From the NCBI GenBank assembly GCA_015832175.1, contig WJXW01000017.1:806001-870000 (forward strand): 64,000 bases of DNA, given 5' to 3'. The number at the start of each line of letters is the position of its first letter. The first letter of the stretch is position 1. Shown here one piece after another: positions 18,493 through 60,424 of this stretch. Source of the stretch: Paraphaeosphaeria minitans. Taxonomy: Eukaryota; Ascomycota; Dothideomycetes; Pleosporales; Didymosphaeriaceae. The notes under the pieces are model-generated. The model was not told where the DNA came from and did not search any database. It saw only the letters and a program-made list of their open reading frames with translations. A program made the position numbers and the translations under genes.

Positions 18493-21400
18493 ATTAAAAA
18501 GAGGTCGACGCTGTCAGGCGTAGACTAGCTATCCAAAAAGTGTTGACCAAGGCGGGGCACCGATACGAACAGTGGTTCGAGGAGCGGGTGCGGTAGCGAA
18601 ACAGCGATTGTTTATATCATGGACCTAGCGGGGTCTGGAAAGTGGAAATCTGAAGCCGGGCTCGCGGGGCGACGACGGTGATAAAGGCCGCGCGCTGGGC
18701 GACGTCGGATGAGGCGAGGAAGTGGAAGAAAGTGCCAGGGCGGTGGAGGGTCGGTCAAGTGATACAAGCACGCTTGCCAGCAGAAGGCGTTGCACAACGC
18801 TAGATAATGAGGGCGCACCGGGTGGGAGGCGAGCTGCGAAGCTGGAAGAGAGGCAGCTGGATCTTGTTCCGGGTTCGGGGCAGGGTTGTGGTAATATGGC
18901 GGCTATAGACGAGAACTCGCGGAGGTTCCAGATGGGGAAGGCAAACGAGTGTAGGAATGGAAACAGCGAATGAAGCACCTCTCAGGCTCTCATGAATGTC
19001 GGAAGCGAGTGAGGGGTTGGAATGCGAGGGAGAGAGGACCTTGGGCTGGGAGGGAGGAAACAAGCACCTGCAAGAGAGCAATGCTGGAGGGGCCGGGGAT
19101 GTTTGTAGGCGCAGGTGGTGCGGAACGCTGGGACCAATGCCTCGCCCAAAGCGTGCTGGTGCCGTGCGATCGGCACAGGGCCGTCAACAGCTGCTGCTGC
19201 AGGCTCTGGACGGCGGCTCGGCCATGGCATGCCATGCCATAGACTAGGTAGGTAGATTATCTACCTGGGTACGAGTTCCGCGCAGCCGACCAGGAGCAGC
19301 CTTGCGCAGTAGTTGCGCCGTTTGGCGCGTTGCATGGTGCGCTGGTTATTCCTAGACACAGGTCCGCCACAGGATTCATGTCAATCCATCTGACTTGACG
19401 GTAGTCTAGCGTCCCTATCCCCATTTAGCCTATGTAGGCTAAGCTGGCCCGAGTTGGCCTAGAACAAGGTTTCAAGTTCCAAGTTTCAAGTTTCGACATA
19501 GTTGATCATGTTCTTAGCAACCTCTCGCCTATGAAAAGAGCAACTAGAAGATTTGTAAGTTTTCTTCATTTGTACCGTAGACTTCGAGTTGGACAGGATG
19601 AGAACATAGGGTGAGAGTATACCTAGCAGTAGAATGAATAACGTCAACACTCTGGAATGTTCTGAAGATTCAGAGTGTCGAAGAAAACATAACATCTCTC
19701 AACTATACGCTAACCCTCGCTAGGATCACTGAACGCTGACCCTTGCTAGGACTACTCAACGCTAGCCCTCGCTAGGATTACTTACCGCTAACCCTCGCTA
19801 GGGCTACTGAGCGCTAACCCTCGCTAGGATTACTTACCGCTAACCCGCTCTAGGATTACCTGGCGCTAAGGCCAAGCCAGGCTAACCTGTGCGCTCGGGC
19901 CGTCATGCATGTCTCGAATCCTCGCTTGCCCCGCTCAAAGCCTCAAAGGGGGCACGACCTCGCGGCACGACCGCCCAGAGCCGACGACCTTCCCCCGTTT
20001 CAATATTTCGCGCCCTCCACTCGTCTCCATGCACAGCGCATCACATCTACCTTGGGATTGATCCTCGCTGGCCCCAGGCGCGTAGCTACTTGCGAATACA
20101 CAGTAGTTGGCACCTAGCCGCCGCCGCCGAGCCGTGCTTCACCACCCGCCTCTCCATGCCATCATGCTGCAGGCGTAGCGGAGAGATGGCGGGCAAAAGA
20201 CTCTCGCACTGCCTCAAGCGTCTCCAGTCGAAGGCCAACGCCAGGGTGTCTATTGCCAAGCAGATCGCGTAGCGACAACGCACCCAGTCTTGAACCGAGC
20301 ATCACCTGAAGCACGCTGCGTGACTCGCTGCGTGCTGTCAGTCTTCGCTCACCAGGCAGGGCACTTTCATGCGAAGCCTATCGATATCACAATCAAATCT
20401 TCCCCTATTCGCATTTGCTCGTAGCTTGGTGGCGCCGAATCACCATGTCTCGACACTCGCAGTTCCTGTGTCTGTCAGCCAGGCATCGACGGCAATCTTG
20501 GTCGCATGAGCGCGGCTTCGGCTTCCAGCGTCAACGTGCAGCAGCGCGGGTGCTACAGCATACGGCAATGTTCCATCGCAGCAGCTTTCCTTCCAGAAGG
20601 CCATCCGCCTGCTTGATGTTGCTATGTATACTTGAACATGAGGCTGAGCAGGGCTAGTACCTCCACCGAATTTCCATGTGGTTGGGATACCGTACCATCG
20701 TGCGGGTGCTGATCTCGCCCATGTCTAGATGGTGGCGGCAACCGACCCGATCCGAGCTGACGAATAATGTCGTGCATCATCGTAGTAAGCGACAAGAGTG
20801 CGCAACAGCGTACTTTGACGTAGACTAGGTACCAGCTTCTTGCCCGAACGTGATTCTGTTCAAAATCTTTTACTTCACTTCACTTTACGGCAATATCAGA
20901 CGTGCCTCCCTCCGCCTCCGTTTCTCTTGGCATGGACCAGCTGCTAGTCATCTTGATTAGCTCAAGTCAGTTCTCCACAAGAGGGCCTGAACCGCGCACG
21001 AGTTTTCGCTTCAAGGCAGGGCTAGTAGGACTCAGGGGTACGACTGTTGATATGTCATAGCGCTGATGGCCCGTCGAGACCTAGTCGACCGTGGATGAAC
21101 TTTGGAACGCCGGGAGCTGATATAGATATCTATCTAAGTGCCTGCACCTTCCTCCGCAGTGCGACTGACTGTACCCCATAGGAGTTGGTAGTGACTTTCA
21201 TTGCTAATGTCTGTCTCCAGTGTGGCGATGTGTTGAAAGCGTCCCAAGCCTGGTCATCATCGATCTCCGCAGCCCAACATTTTGCAAACGAACGAAATTT
21301 GGCGGAACAGCTTTTTGCGGTGCCAAAGCTCGGGTATCTGAATGTGAAAAGATTATAGCAGCCCTCGGGATGGCAAAGTAACCTTGGAAGCAAGGCCGCT

Positions 21401-38700: not shown

Positions 38701-39023
38701 GCGCGCTGTTCGAAGCCACGACCATGGCGCTCATCAAGACGTTCAACGACGCACGGCTCTCAAACATCAACCTGCAAGCGCTGATGCAGGCGACACTGGA
38801 CGTGGAGTTTATGGCGCAGACGCTGGCAAGCTACACCACCGAGGCGGCGAGCGCGACGCAAACGGAGATTTACCAGGTGCTGGATGGGAAAACTGATAAT
38901 GAGGCGAGGGTGAGGCTGCAGGGGGAGTTGGGAAATTTGAGGGGCACGTTGAAGAGTCTAAGGGAGGGGACGAGGGTGGAGTTTAGCTGTTTTAGGAGGG
39001 AGAAGAGGGCACCGAGGGGTTGA
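35767..39023 (+). CDS. SEC5: exocyst complex subunit SEC5
   Basis: Exons 35767-36106, 36165-38275 and 38334-39023 give 1046 aa. Both introns are 58 bp. Sec5 is one of eight exocyst subunits that tether secretory vesicles to sites of growth on the plasma membrane. The protein opens with an acidic N-terminus and MESIETQLLNKYNIPTLFPA, then TYPSVVQVLRQRGL, and a helical region with LSRSIEKKSASLKVLVEANF (conserved start of the Sec5 core). The rest is long and mostly helical, with a disordered Ser/Thr/Pro insert near 550-605. The C-terminal part (SIRLLLTLSNMTAFQTEITP onward) lies in exon 3. Its stop is 157 bases before the LINE target-site duplication, so only 3' flanking DNA is touched by the insertion. 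Confidence 0.92.
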
Positions 39024-39179: not shown

Positions 39180-39192
39180 ACCTCCAAAAGCT
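39180..39192. repeat. 5' target-site duplication of the LINE
   Basis: The 13-base word acctccaaaagct here is repeated exactly at 44976-44988 and brackets the retrotransposon. Part of the acc could be shared with the 3' tail of the element, so the true duplication may be 10-13 bases. Confidence 0.85.
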
Positions 39193-39362
39193 GCGCCACC
39201 ACCATATGTCTGCGCCACAATTGTATAGAGCGTGGAGTCGGACAGTAAAAGACACCGGTGGTACCCTCATAATTCTTTAGCGCGGCGGAGGAGACAGCTT
39301 ACGTACACATTGCGAATACCGGAGTCCAATCACAGAGTGCGAAGAGACGCGGGGAGGCGGCG

Positions 39363-40817
39363 ATGCCGACGCGTCCCGGCGGGATGACCGACGAACCCCA
39401 TACGAACGTCCCCCTACCAATCGTCGACGGTGACCAACCGGTACGCCCACAACGCGAATCAAGACCGGTTACCTTCTTCGACGGAACGACATGGCGAGGA
39501 ACCACGACCGAACCCACTACCCTCGACCCAGACGCTGCGCCAGACACGACACGAGTAAACCAACCATCGAACGTACCCGCAAATAAGACCAATCGCATCG
39601 CTAGATTACGATCAAGGCAAAGGAGATCCCCAGAACCTCCACAAACCCGATGGGAAGAGATAACCTGGCTTATAGCAAGCCTACGGGACGTCATCACAAA
39701 ACAGGAGCGGATGATAGAGGGTATTAGAACCAACCTGGCCGCACTACAGAGGCAGAACGAAACGCTACAAGGCCAGAACGAAACGTTGCAGGACCAGAAC
39801 GAGGCGTTAAGCGCGAGGGTTGACGAGCTTGGAAACCGGATAAAGGAGCTTCAGGAACATAGCAGCGCACATAGGAGTCAGAACGAGACGTTGAAAGAGG
39901 GTATTTCTGCCCTTAAGAGTGAGTTACAGACACTCGGTACGAATCGTCCATCATGGGCCGCAATCGCAGCGCAGGGTAACACAACAGCGCCGGGCAGGCC
40001 TCCATCGGTAAACCCTAGCCCGAGCCAACAAGCAAACGAACAAAAGCTTCCGGGTATCAGTCTTGACCTCTCCGGTGTGATCAGCCCCCAATTTCAGATA
40101 TCCAACACTAAAGAGATCAGAGATCGTGTCCGCCAGGCGTTTAACAGCCACGCGAATACCAAGGACATAGGCTGGTTTGGCATTGCGAGGACAGGAGCAG
40201 ACCCAAACAGGGTCAAAATATGCTTAAGAACGCACGAGGAGGCAGCCAGGATCAAAAGGCATGACGAATGGCTTCAGTCCCATTTCCGAGGAGCTCGTGT
40301 CCAGGGCGAGCAATGGTACCCGGTCAAAGTCGACAGGGTAAATAAGGCTAGCATATGTGATGATTCGAGAATTCACCTCCGGGAGGATGCCGGAGCGAAG
40401 ATAGGTGCCGAAAACGGGGTCGTAGTCAGGAAATTACGCTTCATCGGCCGCCCGAACCCAGACAAGCTCCATTGCTCAGTCGTCCTCTTTCTCGCTAGCA
40501 AACAAGAAGCGGAAGAACTCATACGGCGCAAGTACCTAGATGTCGACGGTGAGGTAGCGTACACTAAAACCTATGAACCAAGGCCTACCCCTCGACGCTG
40601 TTTTAATTGCCACAAGTTCGACGACCATGAGGCTCGAAGATGCCCGACCAGAGAGCCGACATGCGGATTCTGTGCTAGAACCGGTCACGTAGAACGCGAC
40701 TGTGCTTCGGAGACTCCGAAGTGTGTTAATTGCTCCGGCCCACATAAGGCCAGCGATAGAGGATGCCCTGAATATAAAAGACTCCTGCAGGAAGTAAATC
40801 CCCTACGCCATGCCTAG
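39363..40817 (+). CDS. LINE ORF1: Gag-like nucleic-acid-binding protein
   Basis: The protein is 484 aa. Residues 1-100 are Pro/Thr/Arg-rich and disordered. A coiled coil covers about 115-200, with repeated QNETLQGQNETLQDQNEAL heptads, presumably for oligomerisation. A folded middle region follows (about 230-400; KDIGWFGIARTGADPNRVKI). Three Cys/His knuckles lie at about 418-475: CFNCHKFDDHEARRC, the canonical CGFCARTGHVERDC (CX2CX4HX4C), and a variant CVNCSGPHKASDRGC. The usual role is coating the element's RNA. It ends with TAG overlapping the ATG of ORF2. Confidence 0.9.
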   Translation: MPTRPGGMTDEPHTNVPLPIVDGDQPVRPQRESRPVTFFDGTTWRGTTTEPTTLDPDAAPDTTRVNQPSNVPANKTNRIARLRSRQRRSPEPPQTRWEEITWLIASLRDVITKQERMIEGIRTNLAALQRQNETLQGQNETLQDQNEALSARVDELGNRIKELQEHSSAHRSQNETLKEGISALKSELQTLGTNRPSWAAIAAQGNTTAPGRPPSVNPSPSQQANEQKLPGISLDLSGVISPQFQISNTKEIRDRVRQAFNSHANTKDIGWFGIARTGADPNRVKICLRTHEEAARIKRHDEWLQSHFRGARVQGEQWYPVKVDRVNKASICDDSRIHLREDAGAKIGAENGVVVRKLRFIGRPNPDKLHCSVVLFLASKQEAEELIRRKYLDVDGEVAYTKTYEPRPTPRRCFNCHKFDDHEARRCPTREPTCGFCARTGHVERDCASETPKCVNCSGPHKASDRGCPEYKRLLQEVNPLRHA

Positions 40818-43800
40818 AAGGTTCAAGGTCCTGCAAGCGAACGTAGGGCGAATAAGCGAAGTGCAGCACAGCATTATGAACGATCACGATCTTGAAGACT
40901 TCAGCCTACTTCTTATGTCAGAACCATATCTATTTCGTAACCAAGACGGAGAATACAGGGTAACCCCTCAATCTCACCCATACTGGACACCATTCCTCCC
41001 TGAGCACACGGAAGGGAGTCTACGACCTAGAGCGATGCTCTGGACACATAGAGATATTACAGCACGGCCGATATCGACCGAGTCCACCGATATAGCGGCA
41101 CTCCTAATTGAACTAGAGACTGGACCTTTACTCGCCATTTCAGTTTATATCCCCGCCAAATCGGATTCGGAGGACAGCGAACTGAACAGCAGACTTGACA
41201 TAATTCGGAGGACAATTGACACCACTCGGCGGAATCATGATAAAAGAGTCGAAATACTCATTGCCGGGGACTTTAACAGGCACGACCAGTTCTGGGGCGG
41301 TGACTTGGTTGCAACCTCCCAGCGCCAAGGAGAAGGTGAACCCATCATCCAACTCATGTCGGAACTCGATCTCCAGTGTCCACTCCCCAGAGGGATCGAA
41401 ACTTGGATCTCCTATAATGGGGAACACAGTTCGACAATCGACTTAATCCTGGTAACACAAGAACTCGCGTCGGAAATACAGCGATGCACTACAGACTCGA
41501 TGGCGCATGGCTCCGATCACCTAGCTATCTGCACGGAGTTTGCCATCGATCTTACGCACGAGAAAGGGACACCAAGAAAACTCTGGAAGAAAGCGCGCTG
41601 GGACCCAATTAGGAAAGTCGTCGCAGGAGAGCTGGAGCGCCGATCCCAGCCGGACATCCCGGGAGACGTAGACAGTTACTGCCAGTTTGTCACAGAATGC
41701 ATAGCGCCAGCCATCGAAAAATATGTCCCAGTGGCCAGACCGTCACCATACGCGAAGAGATGGTGGACGGAAGACCTAACGGAACTAAGGAAACACTACA
41801 CGTATTGGCGTAACAAGGCTAGCGCATCTCGAAGAGCGAATACACCTGACCCAGGCCTCCAACAGATGGCGGTGACTTGTAGGAAAAGGTACCATGACGC
41901 CATCAGAAACCAGAGGAAAACTCACTGGCAGGACTTTGTTGCCGAAGCCCGGAACATCTGGACCATAGCGCGGTACTTAGACCCAGCTCAGTGTGCGACC
42001 TTTGCAAGAATTCCAGCCATCAAAACCTACGAAGGGGTGAGCACGTCTAATGGCGAGATCGCTAGATGCTTGTTAGAGGAATTCTTTAAGCCCCCGCCAG
42101 GAGTCACCGAGGAGCCGGAAGACGAGAGGCCGCGAGAGGCTTTACCAATGGAACCACTCTCGGAGGTTGAAGTACAAAGGGCGATATTCGCGTCCAACCC
42201 ATACAAGGCCCCGGGACGAGACGGCTTACCAGCCATCGTATGGCAGCAACTGTGGCCAGTCCTCAAACACCACATCGTAGCGCTATTCAAGTTATCACTC
42301 GAAACGGCGACGCTTCCATCGGAGTGGAGAGTAGCAAAGATTGTACCCCTGCGAAAACCAAACAAACCGGACTACACGGTAGCCAAGGCATACCGACCCA
42401 TCTCCCTTCTCGCGACCCTAGGAAAGAGCTTAGAAGCAGTAGTAGCTGAAAGGCTATCCTTCCTAGCGGAGGCACACCGCCTGCTTCCAAAGAGCCACTT
42501 TGGAGCGAGGAAAGGCAGATCGACAACCCAAGCGTTGACTATACTCCAGGAAAGCATCTTCCAGGCCTGGAGGGATAAGAGGGTTCTAAGTCTGGTCAGT
42601 TTCGACGTAAAAGGCGCTTACAATGGGGTTAATATCGATGTCCTTGCGAAAAGACTAAGGAAGAGAGGAATCCCCAACGCATTGGTGGATTGGATAACTT
42701 GCTTCTGCAGCCAGCGAAAAGCGTCGGTCGTAGTAAATGGCCATACCACTGAGACAGTCGATCTACCACAAGCGGGCTTACCTCAGGGTTCCCCACTCTC
42801 CCCGATCCTGTTTCTCTTCTTCAACGCAGATTTGGTTTCATCCAAAATAAACCGCAACAAAGGGGCGATAGCATTTATAGATGACTACACAGCGTGGGTC
42901 ACCGGAGCGTCAGATGGAGAGAACACCAACCTATTACAAGAAACGGTAGTAGCAAAAGCAGAACAGTGGGCACGGAGTAGCGGCGCCACCTTCGAAGCTG
43001 ATAAGACGGCCTTCATCCACTTCACGCGCAGGAACAACACAGTATCGAGCAGCCCACTCTTCGTCAATGAAGAAGCGATACGGCCACAAACAGAAGTAAA
43101 GATTCTAGGAGTAGTTTTCGACCAGAAACTCCGATTTAGCCAACACACGGCCAGAGCGGCTAAGAGAGGAATTAGGGCAGCGCTAGCACTGAAGCGAATC
43201 AAAGGGATGACCGTAGGAACGGCGAGGCAACTTTTCACCTCAACCGTAACACCTACAGTCGATTACGCATCACCGATATGGTCCACAAGTCTGACAGGTC
43301 GTACAACTAAAATGCTAAACCAGATACAGCGTATCGGCACGCAAGCCATAATCGGAGCTTTCCGCACAGTGGCACTAATCAGGGCCGAGATGGAAGCAGG
43401 TATCGAGCAGCTCACGGCCCGCATGCACCGCCAGGAGTATAAATTCTGGGTCAAATGCCACACTCTTCCCGTAAACCATCCCTGGTGGAAAATACGTCGG
43501 GGAATAGATACCAAAAACAAGCGCTTCCCGTCGCCGCTCCAGCGCATCGCAATGCAACTCGATTCGGTCGACCTCACGGAGATGGAAAGAATCGATCCAT
43601 TCTGCATACCCCCTTGGCAACAAGGGATAGAAGCACAGATCCTCGAGGGAGAGGAAGCACAAAAATGGGCAGAAGACTCCGACGAGTTAAAAGTTTTTGT
43701 GGATGCCTCATACCGAGGACACAACGCAGGAGTAGGGGTCTATCATTCGGCCAGAAGAAGTGACAACTCGGTAGTCGAACACCGCGAGGCGGTAAAGATC

Positions 43801-44640
43801 GGGAAGAACGCTGGATACACATCCACCCATGTCGAACTCACTGCGATTCAAGCCGCACTGGAACTCATTTCAGCAATATGGTCACCCGACACGATCGCCC
43901 GATTTGGCAACAAGGCCAGAGATCTCACGTATGTGATAGTGAGCGACAGTCAATCAGCGATCAGAGCAGTGTCGCGCCCCTCTCGCCAAAGTGGCCAGGC
44001 GGTGATCCGACTGATTGTAAACACCACAATGGAAATTAAAAGAAGGGGAGGCCCACATATCCGCCTCCAATGGGTCCCCGCTCACGCTATGGTAGTGGGA
44101 GACGAGATCGCAGATGAGCTGGCAAAGCAAGCAACGGAAGGGACCCTGGACCCTATTCCTGGGCTTACGTTGTCGGCAGCTCTCAAGAAGACTCTCTCAT
44201 GCATACCGAAGATAAAGCTCGAGAAACCGGTCGACATAGACACAGCACTTCCTGGAAAGCATACGAAAAGCATCTATGATCTACAAACCTACAAGAGAGC
44301 AGCAGTGCTATGCCAACTGCGCACAGGGAAATGCCGGTTAAACAGTTATCTAGCCAAGATAGGTGCTACCAATTCGGACAGATGCACCTGCCGGGGACGC
44401 CAGCCGGAAACGGTACGCCATTTCGTGTTCGAATGCCCGCTGTGGAAAGAAGAACGCAAAACGCTCCAGGAAGTCGCAGGCAACAGATGGGGAGATCTAT
44501 CCTTCTTTCTAGGAGGTCGATCTGAACAGCGGCTTCCGTCCGGTGAGCTCTTGGATGGGAAAGCCGAATCCTGGAAACCAAATCTCGACGTAGTCAACCA
44601 GACCATTGAATTTGCAATGGCCACCGGACGGTTATGCTAA
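40810..44640 (+). CDS. LINE ORF2: endonuclease, reverse transcriptase, RNase H
   Basis: The protein is 1276 aa. The N-terminal endonuclease-exonuclease-phosphatase domain (about 1-240) shows LQANVGR, LLMSEPY, AGDFNRHDQFWG (Asp154) and GSDHLAI, all expected in APE-type LINE nucleases. Reverse transcriptase spans about 440-760, with KAPGRDGLPA, the FDVKGAYNGV box, the GLPQGSPLSPILF box and the catalytic FIDDY (689-693). An RNase H domain follows with VFVDASYRG (Asp965), HVELTAIQAAL, VSDSQSAI and HAMVVGDEIADELAKQA. A C-terminal Cys/His segment (DRCTCRGRQPETVRHFVFECPLW) closes it. This set suffices for target-primed reverse transcription. The ATG overlaps the ORF1 stop by 8 bases, suggesting stop-coupled re-initiation. 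Confidence 0.94.
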   Translation: MPRRFKVLQANVGRISEVQHSIMNDHDLEDFSLLLMSEPYLFRNQDGEYRVTPQSHPYWTPFLPEHTEGSLRPRAMLWTHRDITARPISTESTDIAALLIELETGPLLAISVYIPAKSDSEDSELNSRLDIIRRTIDTTRRNHDKRVEILIAGDFNRHDQFWGGDLVATSQRQGEGEPIIQLMSELDLQCPLPRGIETWISYNGEHSSTIDLILVTQELASEIQRCTTDSMAHGSDHLAICTEFAIDLTHEKGTPRKLWKKARWDPIRKVVAGELERRSQPDIPGDVDSYCQFVTECIAPAIEKYVPVARPSPYAKRWWTEDLTELRKHYTYWRNKASASRRANTPDPGLQQMAVTCRKRYHDAIRNQRKTHWQDFVAEARNIWTIARYLDPAQCATFARIPAIKTYEGVSTSNGEIARCLLEEFFKPPPGVTEEPEDERPREALPMEPLSEVEVQRAIFASNPYKAPGRDGLPAIVWQQLWPVLKHHIVALFKLSLETATLPSEWRVAKIVPLRKPNKPDYTVAKAYRPISLLATLGKSLEAVVAERLSFLAEAHRLLPKSHFGARKGRSTTQALTILQESIFQAWRDKRVLSLVSFDVKGAYNGVNIDVLAKRLRKRGIPNALVDWITCFCSQRKASVVVNGHTTETVDLPQAGLPQGSPLSPILFLFFNADLVSSKINRNKGAIAFIDDYTAWVTGASDGENTNLLQETVVAKAEQWARSSGATFEADKTAFIHFTRRNNTVSSSPLFVNEEAIRPQTEVKILGVVFDQKLRFSQHTARAAKRGIRAALALKRIKGMTVGTARQLFTSTVTPTVDYASPIWSTSLTGRTTKMLNQIQRIGTQAIIGAFRTVALIRAEMEAGIEQLTARMHRQEYKFWVKCHTLPVNHPWWKIRRGIDTKNKRFPSPLQRIAMQLDSVDLTEMERIDPFCIPPWQQGIEAQILEGEEAQKWAEDSDELKVFVDASYRGHNAGVGVYHSARRSDNSVVEHREAVKIGKNAGYTSTHVELTAIQAALELISAIWSPDTIARFGNKARDLTYVIVSDSQSAIRAVSRPSRQSGQAVIRLIVNTTMEIKRRGGPHIRLQWVPAHAMVVGDEIADELAKQATEGTLDPIPGLTLSAALKKTLSCIPKIKLEKPVDIDTALPGKHTKSIYDLQTYKRAAVLCQLRTGKCRLNSYLAKIGATNSDRCTCRGRQPETVRHFVFECPLWKEERKTLQEVAGNRWGDLSFFLGGRSEQRLPSGELLDGKAESWKPNLDVVNQTIEFAMATGRLC

Positions 44641-44975
44641 CCATAAACTCTGACCTTAGACATTCCCCAGGATACTCCCACAATATCTCCCGTTTGGACT
44701 CGAAGTCGACTGGCCGGTAACAAGAAAGCCGACGACCGGGAAATTGCTCTCGGAGGCGCAGTGCAGGTAGGGGTAAGGAGGATCTCTGGGTGGACACCTA
44801 GTGTTGGCAACAGTTGATACAGGAAGGTGAGGACGAAGCGCGTCGGGCTTAGAATGAAACGGGGACTCGACGGAATTTCATTGGCCGGAAGAGACAGAAG
44901 TAGTTTAGGCAGCCTACGGGCCGAAAGGCACCCGAGTGGCGTAAGAATAAACCAAACCAAACCAAACCAAACCAA

Positions 44976-44988
44976 ACCTCCAAAAGCT
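44976..44988. repeat. 3' target-site duplication of the LINE
   Basis: This is an exact copy of the 13 bases at 39180-39192. It directly follows the (ACCAA)n tail and lies 50 bases before the ATG of the methyltransferase gene. Confidence 0.85.
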
Positions 44989-45038: not shown

Positions 45039-45834
45039 ATGGACGACTCGGATGGCAGGCCTTTGTTTGCCTTCCAAGATCTGGACTATATTCCCTTCGG
45101 GTACAGTGGTATCTTAGCGCCGTACATCGAAACTGGACCAGGCACCATGCGGGCAGCTGCGGCTCTGATGGCGCTTGATGTGGCGCTGAAAGACGGAAAG
45201 GCAGCTGCAACTGTCGTTTGCGATCTTGGCTGCGGCGATGGTGAATTCCGTAAGATGGCGAGACAATCTATTCTACCTCTATTTTATTCATCATACATAG
45301 ACACCTCTTCCCCACCTTAGCAGCTGACAGGTATCACCCCACTAACGACATTAGACAAGTCATGAGGCCAAATACTAATTGTGTTATGTCAAGTCCTCGG
45401 TTTACTCGGCCATATCAATGGTTCCACAAGCAACCTCACAACTGCCCAAGGTATTGGCATCGATTACAATGCCGACTTGATCAAGACTGCAGGTATCAAC
45501 TCAAAAACCAAAGGCGCCAAGGCCGAGTGGCTCATCTACGACTTCAACGATGATCAAGATGATGTCGCAAGCACATTGATCGATACCCACAAGGTTACCC
45601 ACATGTTCATCTACCTCATCCCGAAGCAATTGGCCCTGCCGACGGTGAGAAGGGTAAGCAAGACTCCTGGGCTTTGGCGTCGCGACTCGGCCGACTGACT
45701 GCGGAAGCTAGATCCTGACACAACTTCATGAGAACGGCGTTGTGCTTTGCTGTCACAAATTCTATCCCGAGTATCTGACGCCTACGAGAGTGGATGCCGT
45801 GATGAACTTGACGGTTTACCATTGCCCTAGATGA
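45039..45834 (+). CDS. small SAM-dependent methyltransferase
   Basis: Exons 45039-45249, 45394-45653 and 45712-45834 give 197 aa. The N-terminal block DLDYIPFGYSGILAPYIETG is followed by SAM motif I, VVCDLGCGDGEF (about 60-71), then GIGIDYNADLI (motif II, acidic end of strand 2), AEWLIYDFND, the strand-4 segment KVTHMFIYLIPKQL and HENGVVLCCHKFYPEYL. The PYxxTGP...DLGCGDGE arrangement recalls the FAM173/ATPSCKMT group of lysine methyltransferases, but the substrate cannot be told. The first intron (144 bp) is long for this genome. Its donor (GTAAGA) is good but the acceptor is weaker. The LINE has separated this gene from its original upstream DNA, so expression may be altered. Confidence 0.72.
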
Positions 45835-55811: not shown

Positions 55812-58198
55812 ATGCGCGCTGAGAACCAGAGCGATGGCCCATCTCTGCGCCCTAAATTGTCAAGGCGCGGTGCGGAACGAATGTCGGGCCGGGACTGGCG
55901 ATGCGAGGTGGGGTGAATTGACCCGGAAAGATGAAGGCGAGCGTGGGCCGTTTTGAGTGGTGGCCCGGAGTGGATGCCCCACAGTGCATGGACGATTGTG
56001 AACACGCTGGTATGGACATGTGTTATGAGCGCTTTTATCTGGATAGAGGCATGCCACGATGGATGAGTGCGGGAATATTTGTTTAAAAAGCGAGGGGCAG
56101 GCTTGCGGGCGCCACGCCATGGTAGTTGAGATGGTCTCCCGTATGGTATGGCCATGGTTATGTTACTACTCCTGCATTGGTAGGATGGCGTTGCTTCTAT
56201 TCATTACTTGAACAGGCCATTTCCAATACTTTGTCAGTGCTGCGACGTGTGACCATCTCTACTGACGTATGCAGGTACAGCATTCTCCTATGCAAGCCAG
56301 CATAGCATGTGGTTTGGTTTCCCTCCCAAGTCTTCCCATTGTTTCGAAATTCTCAGCTCCCGCGCCACCGCTTGCACAACCCCCGCACCAAGCCCATCCA
56401 AGAAATACCTAGCCATAGCTCCCTCAAAATCACCCGTCATTACGACGTACCTAGATATCTGTTTGTGCCGCGTGCGTGCGGCCGTCACCTGCATACACTG
56501 TGCTAGGTACGTTGGAGAAGGTCACGGCAGCAACAAGATGTCGCTTACTTGACCGCCTTCACGGCGCTGGATTCCCACGCGAGTCTTGGGCAAACAAGTC
56601 CCAGCTGAGACTCTTCGGGAGAGGGCTCCGATGGCGCTCCACTTCCAACATGCAACCATTGTCGCCAAATGTATTGTTTGGGGTGCGTGCGCGGTGTACG
56701 AGTACTGTGTACTGGAATGTGCGCGCTAGGTAGATACCCAAGAGACAGCATTGTGCATCGAGTGGAGCGGTTTTACGGCGGCGTACGAGTACCTAGGTAG
56801 GTACTCGGCGGGAGTTGCACGAGCACGTGCAAAGGCGCGCGCATGGCGAGCTTGAACTCGCATCCTCGCACTCGGGTCTGCATGTCCAGCACATCAGAGT
56901 GGAGGTGTTCTTCTATTCATCGGTGTTCCGCGCGGGGCCGCACACAGGGTCGTCTGTTTCGTCGAGGCAATATTGCAGGCTCCTCCAACGAGGGATAACG
57001 CGGCTTGTTGGACTCGCGGCGACTCCGCTGGCAGTGTCTAGCGCGCAGATTGGCGAGGGGACGGATATCGAGCCAGGCAACTTGACAATGGCGGTGAAAG
57101 ACGCGGTCAGGCCACCGGCGGGAGAAGGCCGGGATGTTGCCTCGGCGGCGGACGGGGTGCGTGAAACGGAGGCGGGCTGGCTGGCTGCGAGCGAGCGAGC
57201 GAGGTGCGGGAGGATGCGCAATGGATGGGGTGAGGGATTCGCCTGGCGTTCGGAACGCGGAAGTTGCAGGACGCGGCGGAGTGCCACAGGGTGTTCGGAG
57301 AGAAAAGGAGGGTGGGATGGTGTATGTGCCATGCAGGCTTGCCGTATTGGCAGTATAGGCAGACTGAGGGGTGGTGGCCAGGCCATACGAGGTGTCGTAA
57401 CCTAGGTGGCATAACCCAGCGTCAATCAAGTGCCATACGAGGTGTCGTGACCCAGCGTCTCTCAAGTGCCATACGAGATGTCATAACCCGGCGTCTCTCA
57501 AGTGCCATACGAGATGTCATCAACTGCAACCCGCAGCCCGCACCCGTATATTGCTGCTGCGCGGAGCGTCTGGGGTTGCTTGCGTGGTCCCTTCTGCCCG
57601 GCACAACGCAGATCTGAGACGGACGGGTGCCAGATCAGGGACAACATCAGCCTCCGGGGATTTGCTGTGGCCGTGGACTTTGTAGATAGTCTCCCTAGTC
57701 CATTGCGTTGCAGAGTGAGACACCGGAGCCATGGTGCGGAAGCCGGACATTATTGCTGTACCAGCTAGACTGCCTAATAACAACTGTTGTGCGTTTTCTG
57801 GCAGACGGCGCTCAGGCGTGCATGAGGACAGAGGTGCGTGGGCCAAGGCCAGTGCTAGAAGCTATTACCGTTTAGCGCCTGCGCGGATGCGAAGCACGTC
57901 AGCCGCTTCACCGTTCCACTCCCCGTTTTGGCGGCGGCTGGGCCACGGCGGCGACGCGAGAGCGTGCGCTGCGAGTCGAGCTGCTACACTATATAGACTG
58001 CGGCGTCGGCTCTCTGCTTTTGCTCCTCTCTCCGCTTGGCGTATTCTTCGGGTACCCTGCTTGCGTGTACCCTCCGGTTGACTTTGCTCGCTGCTACTCA
58101 CCACACTCCGGCACAGATCCTGTTTCATATTGTTGACCTGGAATGAGCCTTCGACACAACCGCACTGAAGGGACCTGGAGCCGTGTACGCTGCCAGCC
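55812..58198. other. 2.4-kb gene-poor region
   Basis: No coding gene was recognised. The plus-strand frame 56815-57405 is long but GC-rich, without motifs, and overlaps two open minus frames. A 36-bp tandem repeat lies at 57382-57525. CTAGGTAGG-type words recur near 56700-56810. A tRNA T-arm-like word near 56850 did not fold into a tRNA by eye. Confidence 0.5.
57382..57525. repeat. 36-bp tandem repeat
   Basis: Copies start at 57382, 57432, 57468 and 57504. The unit begins gccatacgaggtgtcgtgac and ends cgtctctcaagt. The last three steps are 36 bases. The first copy has a 14-base insertion and the last is partial. It lies in a gap between the POM33-like and cyclin genes. Confidence 0.88.
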
Positions 58199-59776: not shown

Positions 59777-60263
59777 TCTTCGCCTGCTAGTGCACGCCTG
59801 GGTGCATTGGGCAGTCGGACCCGGCGGTTCAATCTATGCAGACGAGTCATCAGCGATGGCGGGCTGTCCAAGACGCGTCTCAACATCGGCATCGGACGAT
59901 GGTGTACAGGAACGACTGCCATGGTGGGGTTGCAGTTTGGTGTGTACCTCTCTCTCTACTACCCTAGGTATCGACGCAACGACCCTCGAGTGCGTGCGTG
60001 CATGCATGCATGCAAGCATCCACAACAGTCGTTCACAGATGCTCACCGCAACTTCTGCCGCATGGAAAAGTATCTTCCAGCTCATCTTCCGAGTCCCAAG
60101 TGCACCGAGGAGCAGTCGAAGAGAGATCTAGACAGGCCTGGATGTTCGTTCGTGGTGGATGCGCTTAGGTACCGTACCTACCCCACTTCGTTGGCTTGCC
60201 CTCTCGTGCATGCACAAAGCTCAACGGATGTTGGCGCGACGCGTTGCCATTGGGAATACCTAG

Positions 60264-60424
60264 GGAGTCCGCTTCTCACGCGCTGCCGTGGAGGGTAGTG
60301 AATCCACTTCTCACGCGCTGCCGTTGGGAATAGTGAATCCACTTCTCACGCGCTGCCGTTGGGAATAGTGAATCCACTTCTCACGCGCTGCCATTGGCAA
60401 TAGGAAATCCGCTTCTCACGCGCC
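60264..60424. repeat. 35-bp tandem repeat upstream of glycogen phosphorylase
   Basis: Units start at 60264, 60299, 60334, 60369 and 60404 (partial). The core is ccacttctcacgcgctgccg. The second and third copies are identical and the outer ones diverge. It ends about 335 bases before the ATG, so it lies in the promoter or leader of the gene. Confidence 0.92.

Follow-up and report, generated by a model that had tools for sequence, protein, structure and literature searches.

A very young Tad-like LINE in Paraphaeosphaeria minitans whose 5' ends probably trace its burst to one host locus

A stretch of 64,000 nucleotides from Paraphaeosphaeria minitans (contig WJXW01000017.1, positions 806,001 to 870,000; here called the window) carries an inserted long interspersed nuclear element (LINE), which spans window positions 39193–44978 and contains two open reading frames (ORFs), both intact. 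The first 26–28 bases of this copy match host DNA elsewhere in the genome, at a locus that we designated S. This match, which goes beyond an earlier reading made from the sequence alone (the sequence-only reading), appears to point to the source locus. Taken as a whole, the results make it highly probable that the element is a recently active, autonomous Tad-like LINE, with a burst of insertions rooted at S and with 5' ends tagged by host DNA.

The genome was searched as a 47.45-Mb assembly of 30 contigs, with the window in contig C17; all copy counts are lower bounds. The sequence-only reading had considered the element an intact, young and possibly still mobile LINE and had proposed a genome search for further copies. 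Such copies exist, so that its refuting case of a LINE with neither other copies nor an empty site does not apply as regards copies: at least 13 near-full-length ones, the window copy among them, were found on contigs C1, C2, C3, C8, C12, C14, C15, C17, C19 and C20, and at least 18 places contained the 3' end of the LINE (13 of the 18 being near-full-length). In agreement with a young age, a 5682-bp core was identical in 11 of the 13 copies, including that in the window, with both ORFs open in all of these. Together the 11 cores comprise 62,502 bases with zero private differences (95% upper bound 4.8e-5 per site). The core of one further copy, L004, showed 3 differences from this burst sequence, and L044 (C19:143297) was old and broken, with 199 differences over 5662 bp (96.5% identity), no first start codon in ORF1 and two stops within ORF2. 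ORF1 was identical in 12 and ORF2 in 11 of the 13 copies, and the ORF2 protein of L004 was the same as that of the burst despite the DNA differences. A 417-bp burst copy on C8 (C8:2365267, minus strand) consists of the 3' end alone and is identical to the burst.

Shared end words of 11–15 bp were found at 11 of the 12 young near-full-length copies, and target-site duplications at 10 of the 11 identical burst copies. L042 (C8:1300179) had no recognisable target-site duplication at its ends, and its target was possibly deleted or rearranged. The shared word of the 417-bp copy falls in a TAGG repeat. The tails of the 12 young near-full-length copies consisted of 3 to 6 AAACC units. (AAACC)4 is also present at five other loci (C4, C5, C9, C11 and C21), where inspection of 501-bp stretches by eye revealed no LINE 3' end before the repeat, so that these were discarded as candidates for further short insertions. 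On these grounds a very young age of the burst copies is well supported, and so is the possibility that the window element is mobile today.

The 5' ends of 12 copies were aligned outward from the core. In the ten young copies outside S the start points varied: L001 and L002 begin at 39193 (window coordinates), L006 at 39201, L005 at 39203–39204, L007 at 39204–39205 and L008 at 39214, and further downstream L040, L041 and L042 begin at 39253–39254 and L043 at 39263. A leader of 5–28 S bases was present in six of the ten, window copy included. Locus S, occupied by the two LINE copies L003 and L004, is duplicated, with one place at C15:594k and the other at C20:284k. At both, the sequence directly before TTGTATAG (39221) is ...CACCATATGTCTGCGCCACAA, and a second ATGTCTGCGCCACAA follows the tail and runs on into host DNA, giving a 15-bp duplication. 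Because ATGTCTGCGCCACAA lies on both sides of the element at S, it is host DNA there; at S the leader bases are flank and target-site duplication. A 19-bp tandem repeat is present, of all copies in the alignment, only at L004; L001 and L002 have 7 extra bases that match the last bases of its first unit. A search with the 20-base word of the leader, allowing up to 2 mismatches, gave 7 places in the genome, all of them S or 5' ends of copies, against 1 for the reversed control word. Host flank of the putative source copy thus recurs at the 5' ends of copies elsewhere, and we read the leader as a short 5' transduction from S, which would indicate that the burst was rooted at S.

Several observations weigh against this reading. 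Four of the ten young copies outside S begin at 39253–39263, too far downstream to show a leader, and by that leader they are untraceable to S. In this genome, the full-length matches of each S flank were only the two occupied copies, so that an empty S site was not found (the search with the flanks also lists five partial matches of 70–90%). The lack of an empty site showing CACCATATGTCTGCGCCACAA as plain host DNA would also suit another explanation, in which the LINE natively begins with CACCATATGTCTGCGCCACAA, which is truncated to a variable extent elsewhere, and the likeness to the S flank comes from homology-guided insertion; the leader copies are indeed nested, as truncation would yield. 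However, the 15 bases of ATGTCTGCGCCACAA at S also stand downstream of the tail, where they join host DNA, and if they were native L003 would be left without a target-site duplication. In addition, the bases by which L001 and L002 are longer match the tandem repeat at L004. We consider a native 5' end of this kind most improbable.

Further points, some for and some against this reading, concern the two copies at S. L003 and L004 occupy the same position in a duplicated segment, with 1.5-kb flanks matching on both sides. Probes taken to the right at about 5, 10 and 20 kb from S match at 99.4–99.8%; on the left, those at about 6, 12 and 22 kb had no counterpart where expected on C15. The duplicated segment (C20:~282–311 kb and C15:~592–620 kb) extends about 20 kb to the right of S, close to the C20 contig end, and may represent either a segmental duplication or a haplotype that was not collapsed. 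L004 differs from the burst copies at three sites, with C, C and G in place of T, T and T, and C, C, G was also found in all three older copies that cover these sites; of these, L046 and L047 have many differences in common and could be a single copy that was duplicated, and two further old fragments do not reach the sites. Since it shares these bases with older copies, L004 is probably a sister or ancestor of the burst, which favours the reading. Conversion of L004 from an old copy was considered as a source of its C, C, G and rejected: the differences of the three old copies within the tract (L044 at 5332 and 5378; L046 at 5392, 5420 and 5440; L047 at 5420) are absent in L004, although an unseen donor is possible.

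L003, with T, T, T and a single 19-bp unit, is burst-like by its three T's yet sits at the site of L004, and its junctions differ from those of L004 at both ends (the 19-bp repeat and a 4-bp tail change). Its placement calls for a segmental duplication in which the 19-bp repeat was lost, for gene conversion, or for a repeated insertion into the site, and this counts against the reading. Between L003 and L004 the element has 3 differences in 5780 positions and the duplicated host DNA 13 in 4493 (p = 0.0025); for the adjoining flanks alone the number is 7 in 2990 (p = 0.022). The element is thus less diverged than the host DNA around it, which argues against a simple duplication of S, and the clustering of the three single-nucleotide differences within 166 bp (p = 0.0025) argues against independent mutation. 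The differing junctions would fit independent insertions of L003 and L004 at the same position in both S copies, and same-site pairs are known for the yeast LINE Zorro3, with three pairs in 30 insertions according to the available text of the report (PMC1965478). On the other hand, the remaining target sites have, by eye, no evident common motif, and a double hit of this kind seems unlikely to us.

The lower divergence of the element at S makes gene conversion plausible there. On a larger scale, the burst could be old, its copies having come to look identical through gene conversion or assembly polishing. Their identity rests on assembled sequence and not on raw reads, and could partly be an assembly or polishing effect, which also counts against a recent burst. 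Homogenisation would however need to spare L004 and L044, and 10 of the 11 identical copies keep exact end words of 11–15 bp, which are expected to decay with age. An old, homogenised burst is in our view quite improbable.

Returning to a recent burst rooted at S, three routes would be conceivable. The C20 copy may have acquired its mutations, seeded the burst and dropped one repeat unit afterwards; a daughter of L004 may have founded the burst and converted the C20 copy; or S may have been hit twice. All three would put the root of the burst at S.

The following course of events is proposed. RNA would start at varying points near and upstream of the 5' end of the element, the ORF2 protein would nick a loosely chosen target, and target-primed reverse transcription would copy the RNA from its (AAACC)n tail, with units slipping. 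At least 11 insertions, the burst, would derive from the copy at S, either directly or through a single daughter, and because transcription at S would have begun inside the flanking host DNA, six offspring would have received 5 to 28 S bases as their new 5' end. Leaders of this short length would be expected from variable start sites close to an internal promoter; initiation of human L1 was reportedly described by Lavie et al. in 2004 as variable, with an effect of the upstream flanks. By eye, an extra G that fits neither target nor element was seen at the 5' junction of L002 and of L041, and this fits a copied RNA cap. The open ORFs, the identical cores, the duplications, the S-identical leader, the variable starts and the variable tail are present in the sequence itself; the copying mechanism, transduction as the origin of the leader, the copied cap at two junctions, mobility today and the path taken from S we infer.

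A sister LINE family was represented by L067 (C8:1091500–1098500) and by places on C15, C18 and C19, with 65% DNA identity over about 1 kb of ORF2; L067 has long open frames at the ORF1 and ORF2 positions. Where inspected, the tails of this family are (AAATC)n as opposed to (AAACC)n here, which suggests family-specific tails maintained by slippage. The end of the 3' untranslated region (UTR), GGCACCCGAG..GGCGTAAGAAT, reappears slightly changed in the sister family. All 13 near-full-length copies are on the plus strand of their contigs, over 10 contigs (two-sided p = 0.0002, noticed after the fact); with the truncated minus-strand burst copy added, 13 of 14 young or near-full-length copies are (p = 0.002). 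Older fragments and the sister family are found on both strands. Contig orientation should be arbitrary, and the excess is unexplained.

The layout of the window copy is given in Table 1. ORF1 start to ORF2 end measures 5278 bp with both frames open, in line with the 5.3 kb given by the sequence-only reading. That reading had also claimed an exact 13-bp target-site duplication, and the word ACCTCCAAAAGCT does occur twice (39180–39192 and 44976–44988) and nowhere else exactly in the window. With 2 mismatches allowed there were 6 matches, the other 4 each having 2 mismatches, and a shuffled control gave a mean of 1.5 matches at this tolerance. A further claim, that both ends of the element can be located exactly, was not supported as worded. 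ACC at 44976–44978 fits tail and duplication alike, which makes the 3' end ambiguous by 3 nucleotides and leaves 10 bp of unambiguous duplication; the 5' boundary of the insertion is defined to about 2 bases, and 39193–39218 (39220 at most) is the match to the other host locus.

Table 1. Parts of the LINE copy in the window and their coordinates.
Feature	Position	Strand	Remarks
Target-site duplication, 5' copy, ACCTCCAAAAGCT	39180..39192	+	Identical to 44976–44988
5' leader, GCGCCAC + CACCATATGTCTGCGCCAC (26 bp), then AA fitting either side	39193..39220	+	Matches host DNA at locus S
5' UTR; unambiguous element sequence starts at locus S with TTGTATAG (39221)	39221..39362	+	
ORF1, 484 aa	39363..40817	+	Open
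ORF2, 1276 aa; start codon overlaps ORF1 stop within ATGCCTAG	40810..44640	+	Open
Endonuclease domain, PF14529	41131..41529	+	1.6e-20
Reverse transcriptase domain, PF00078; D599, D691, D692	42364..43116	+	2.7e-28
RNase H domain, PF00075	43687..44136	+	3.2e-8
3' UTR; end is GGCACCCGAG..GGCGTAAGAAT	44641..44948	+	
Pentanucleotide tail, (AAACC)6	44949..44978	+	
Target-site duplication, 3' copy	44976..44988	+	ACC common to tail

ORF2 scored above the cut-off for the Pfam profiles of endonuclease, reverse transcriptase and RNase H. It was aligned with 13 relatives, hand-picked from the best 120 of 495 homologues. Endonuclease residues E38, D154, N156, D211, D236 and H237 were invariant, as were reverse transcriptase residues D599, D691 and D692 (14 of 14 sequences); these we take to be the catalytic ones. 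The usual acidic residues of RNase H vary among the 14. ORF2 matched 10 sequences among solved structures, including LINE-1 ORF2 and R2 proteins, and was 99% identical over 29% of its length to one Paraphaeosphaeria minitans protein. Near the C-terminus of ORF1, three cysteine-histidine motifs were recognised by eye from what we take to be the knuckle pattern, one of them an exact CX2CX4HX4C. Among the 25 of 44 Pfam matches listed for ORF1, all were weak and below cut-off, many were coiled-coil, and none was a CCHC family; of its 11 homologues, 10 had no Pfam domain.

The element combines reverse transcriptase and endonuclease with variable target-site duplications, a simple 3' tail, 5' truncation and the lack of long terminal repeats, and the repeat families listed for the window contain no long direct repeats flanking it. 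Two ORFs, with endonuclease, reverse transcriptase and RNase H in ORF2, form the layout of the Tad clade, for which zinc knuckles in ORF1 are also a feature. No match named Tad1 was present among the best 120 of 495 ORF2 homologues, and those with organism names were fungal. By ORF layout and domain content, as distinct from a reverse transcriptase tree, the element appears to be a Tad-like LINE.

L044, the only old near-full-length copy, was compared with the burst for signs of repeat-induced point mutation (RIP). C-to-T changes at CpA numbered 14 of 35 (p = 0.14) and G-to-A changes at TpG 11 of 45 (p = 0.07). Pooled, 25 of 80 changes in the RIP direction were at CpA/TpG against 17.5 expected (p = 0.03), and relative to the reverse changes (11 of 60 in CpA/TpG context) p was 0.06, the direction of change being assumed from the burst sequence, which weakens the test. 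This excess is mild and would neither show nor exclude RIP in this fungus. The burst copies have no RIP trace because they are identical.

Among described elements, LINE-Tad-RtPc5 of Paracoccidioides (PMC4427930, consulted in part) has a comparable length (5905 bp) and an ORF1 followed by ORF2 in a different frame. Its ORF2 product (1312 aa) is about as large as the one here and likewise contains endonuclease, reverse transcriptase and RNase H. RtPc5 differs in its poly(A) tail and in the truncation of most copies (60 of 65 in Pb01), whereas here the tail is (AAACC)n and most places with a 3' end are near-full-length. UnaL2 of eel likewise has a tail of pentanucleotide units (TGTAA), for which slippage in reverse transcription is assumed, but belongs to the L2 clade and has another repeat unit and another host (PMC3747384, in the part available). 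A study of primate L1 reports, in its available text, that 5' transduction is extremely rare in human genomes and absent from its own data (PMC4862182). The two cases are alike in that transcription from an upstream start takes host sequence ahead of a LINE along to another site; the contrast with six of ten copies here is not like for like, since that method requires about 50–60 bp of carried sequence and leaders of 5–28 bases are below its reach.

The window insertion lies about 160 bp beyond an open frame whose stop is at 39023, itself located after a Sec5-homologous frame with 100% identity over 91% to a Paraphaeosphaeria minitans protein, and 50 bp before an ATG at 45039 whose open frame has no Pfam match. 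Three tandem arrays were also present in the window, at 19707–19881 (26-bp unit), 57404–57520 (36-bp) and 60261–60423 (35-bp). Neighbours were scanned with ten hand-picked ORFs at 7 of the 13 sites, with distances taken from ORFs and not from annotated starts, and the scan yields no frequencies. S is about 130–190 bp before the likely starts of a divergent JmjC-domain gene. Two insertions precede a gene in the sense direction, L043 an SDR gene at a distance of about 140 bp and L006 a nitrilase-like gene at about 600 bp. L007 precedes a divergent UIM-domain gene by about 170 bp, the adenylosuccinate synthetase ORF at L040 is more than 800 bp away, and L008 interrupts an ORF whose product has a SnoaL-like domain. 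No family was matched by three of the ten ORFs. For Zorro3 of Candida albicans, 17 of 30 new insertions at 500 bp or less from an ORF start and an apparent upstream bias are reported in the text available, as is insertion at poly-A tracts, which by eye are not evident at the present targets (PMC1965478); with hand-picked sites only, no bias is claimed here.

Paraphaeosphaeria minitans (older name Coniothyrium minitans) is used for biological control of Sclerotinia. Judged by titles and the beginnings of abstracts, none of the papers listed for this host concerns this LINE. The element is of an ordinary kind in an unusually clear state: a fungal LINE that is very young and has a readable origin. 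As it is possibly still inserting, it bears on the strain stability of a biocontrol host. Renewal of LINE 5' ends and promoters is hard to observe, since truncated or old copies are numerous. In the present family, in which most of the copies found are near-full-length, the identical cores, the individual duplications and the 5' ends tagged by host DNA make the seeding locus and the transcript starts readable. We tentatively suggest, as a possibility somewhat on the doubtful side, that landing at S upstream of the JmjC-domain gene provided a host promoter that triggered the burst, with the 5' end of the LINE lengthened by host DNA and inherited by its daughters. If true, this would be a LINE caught in renewing its 5' end from host sequence.

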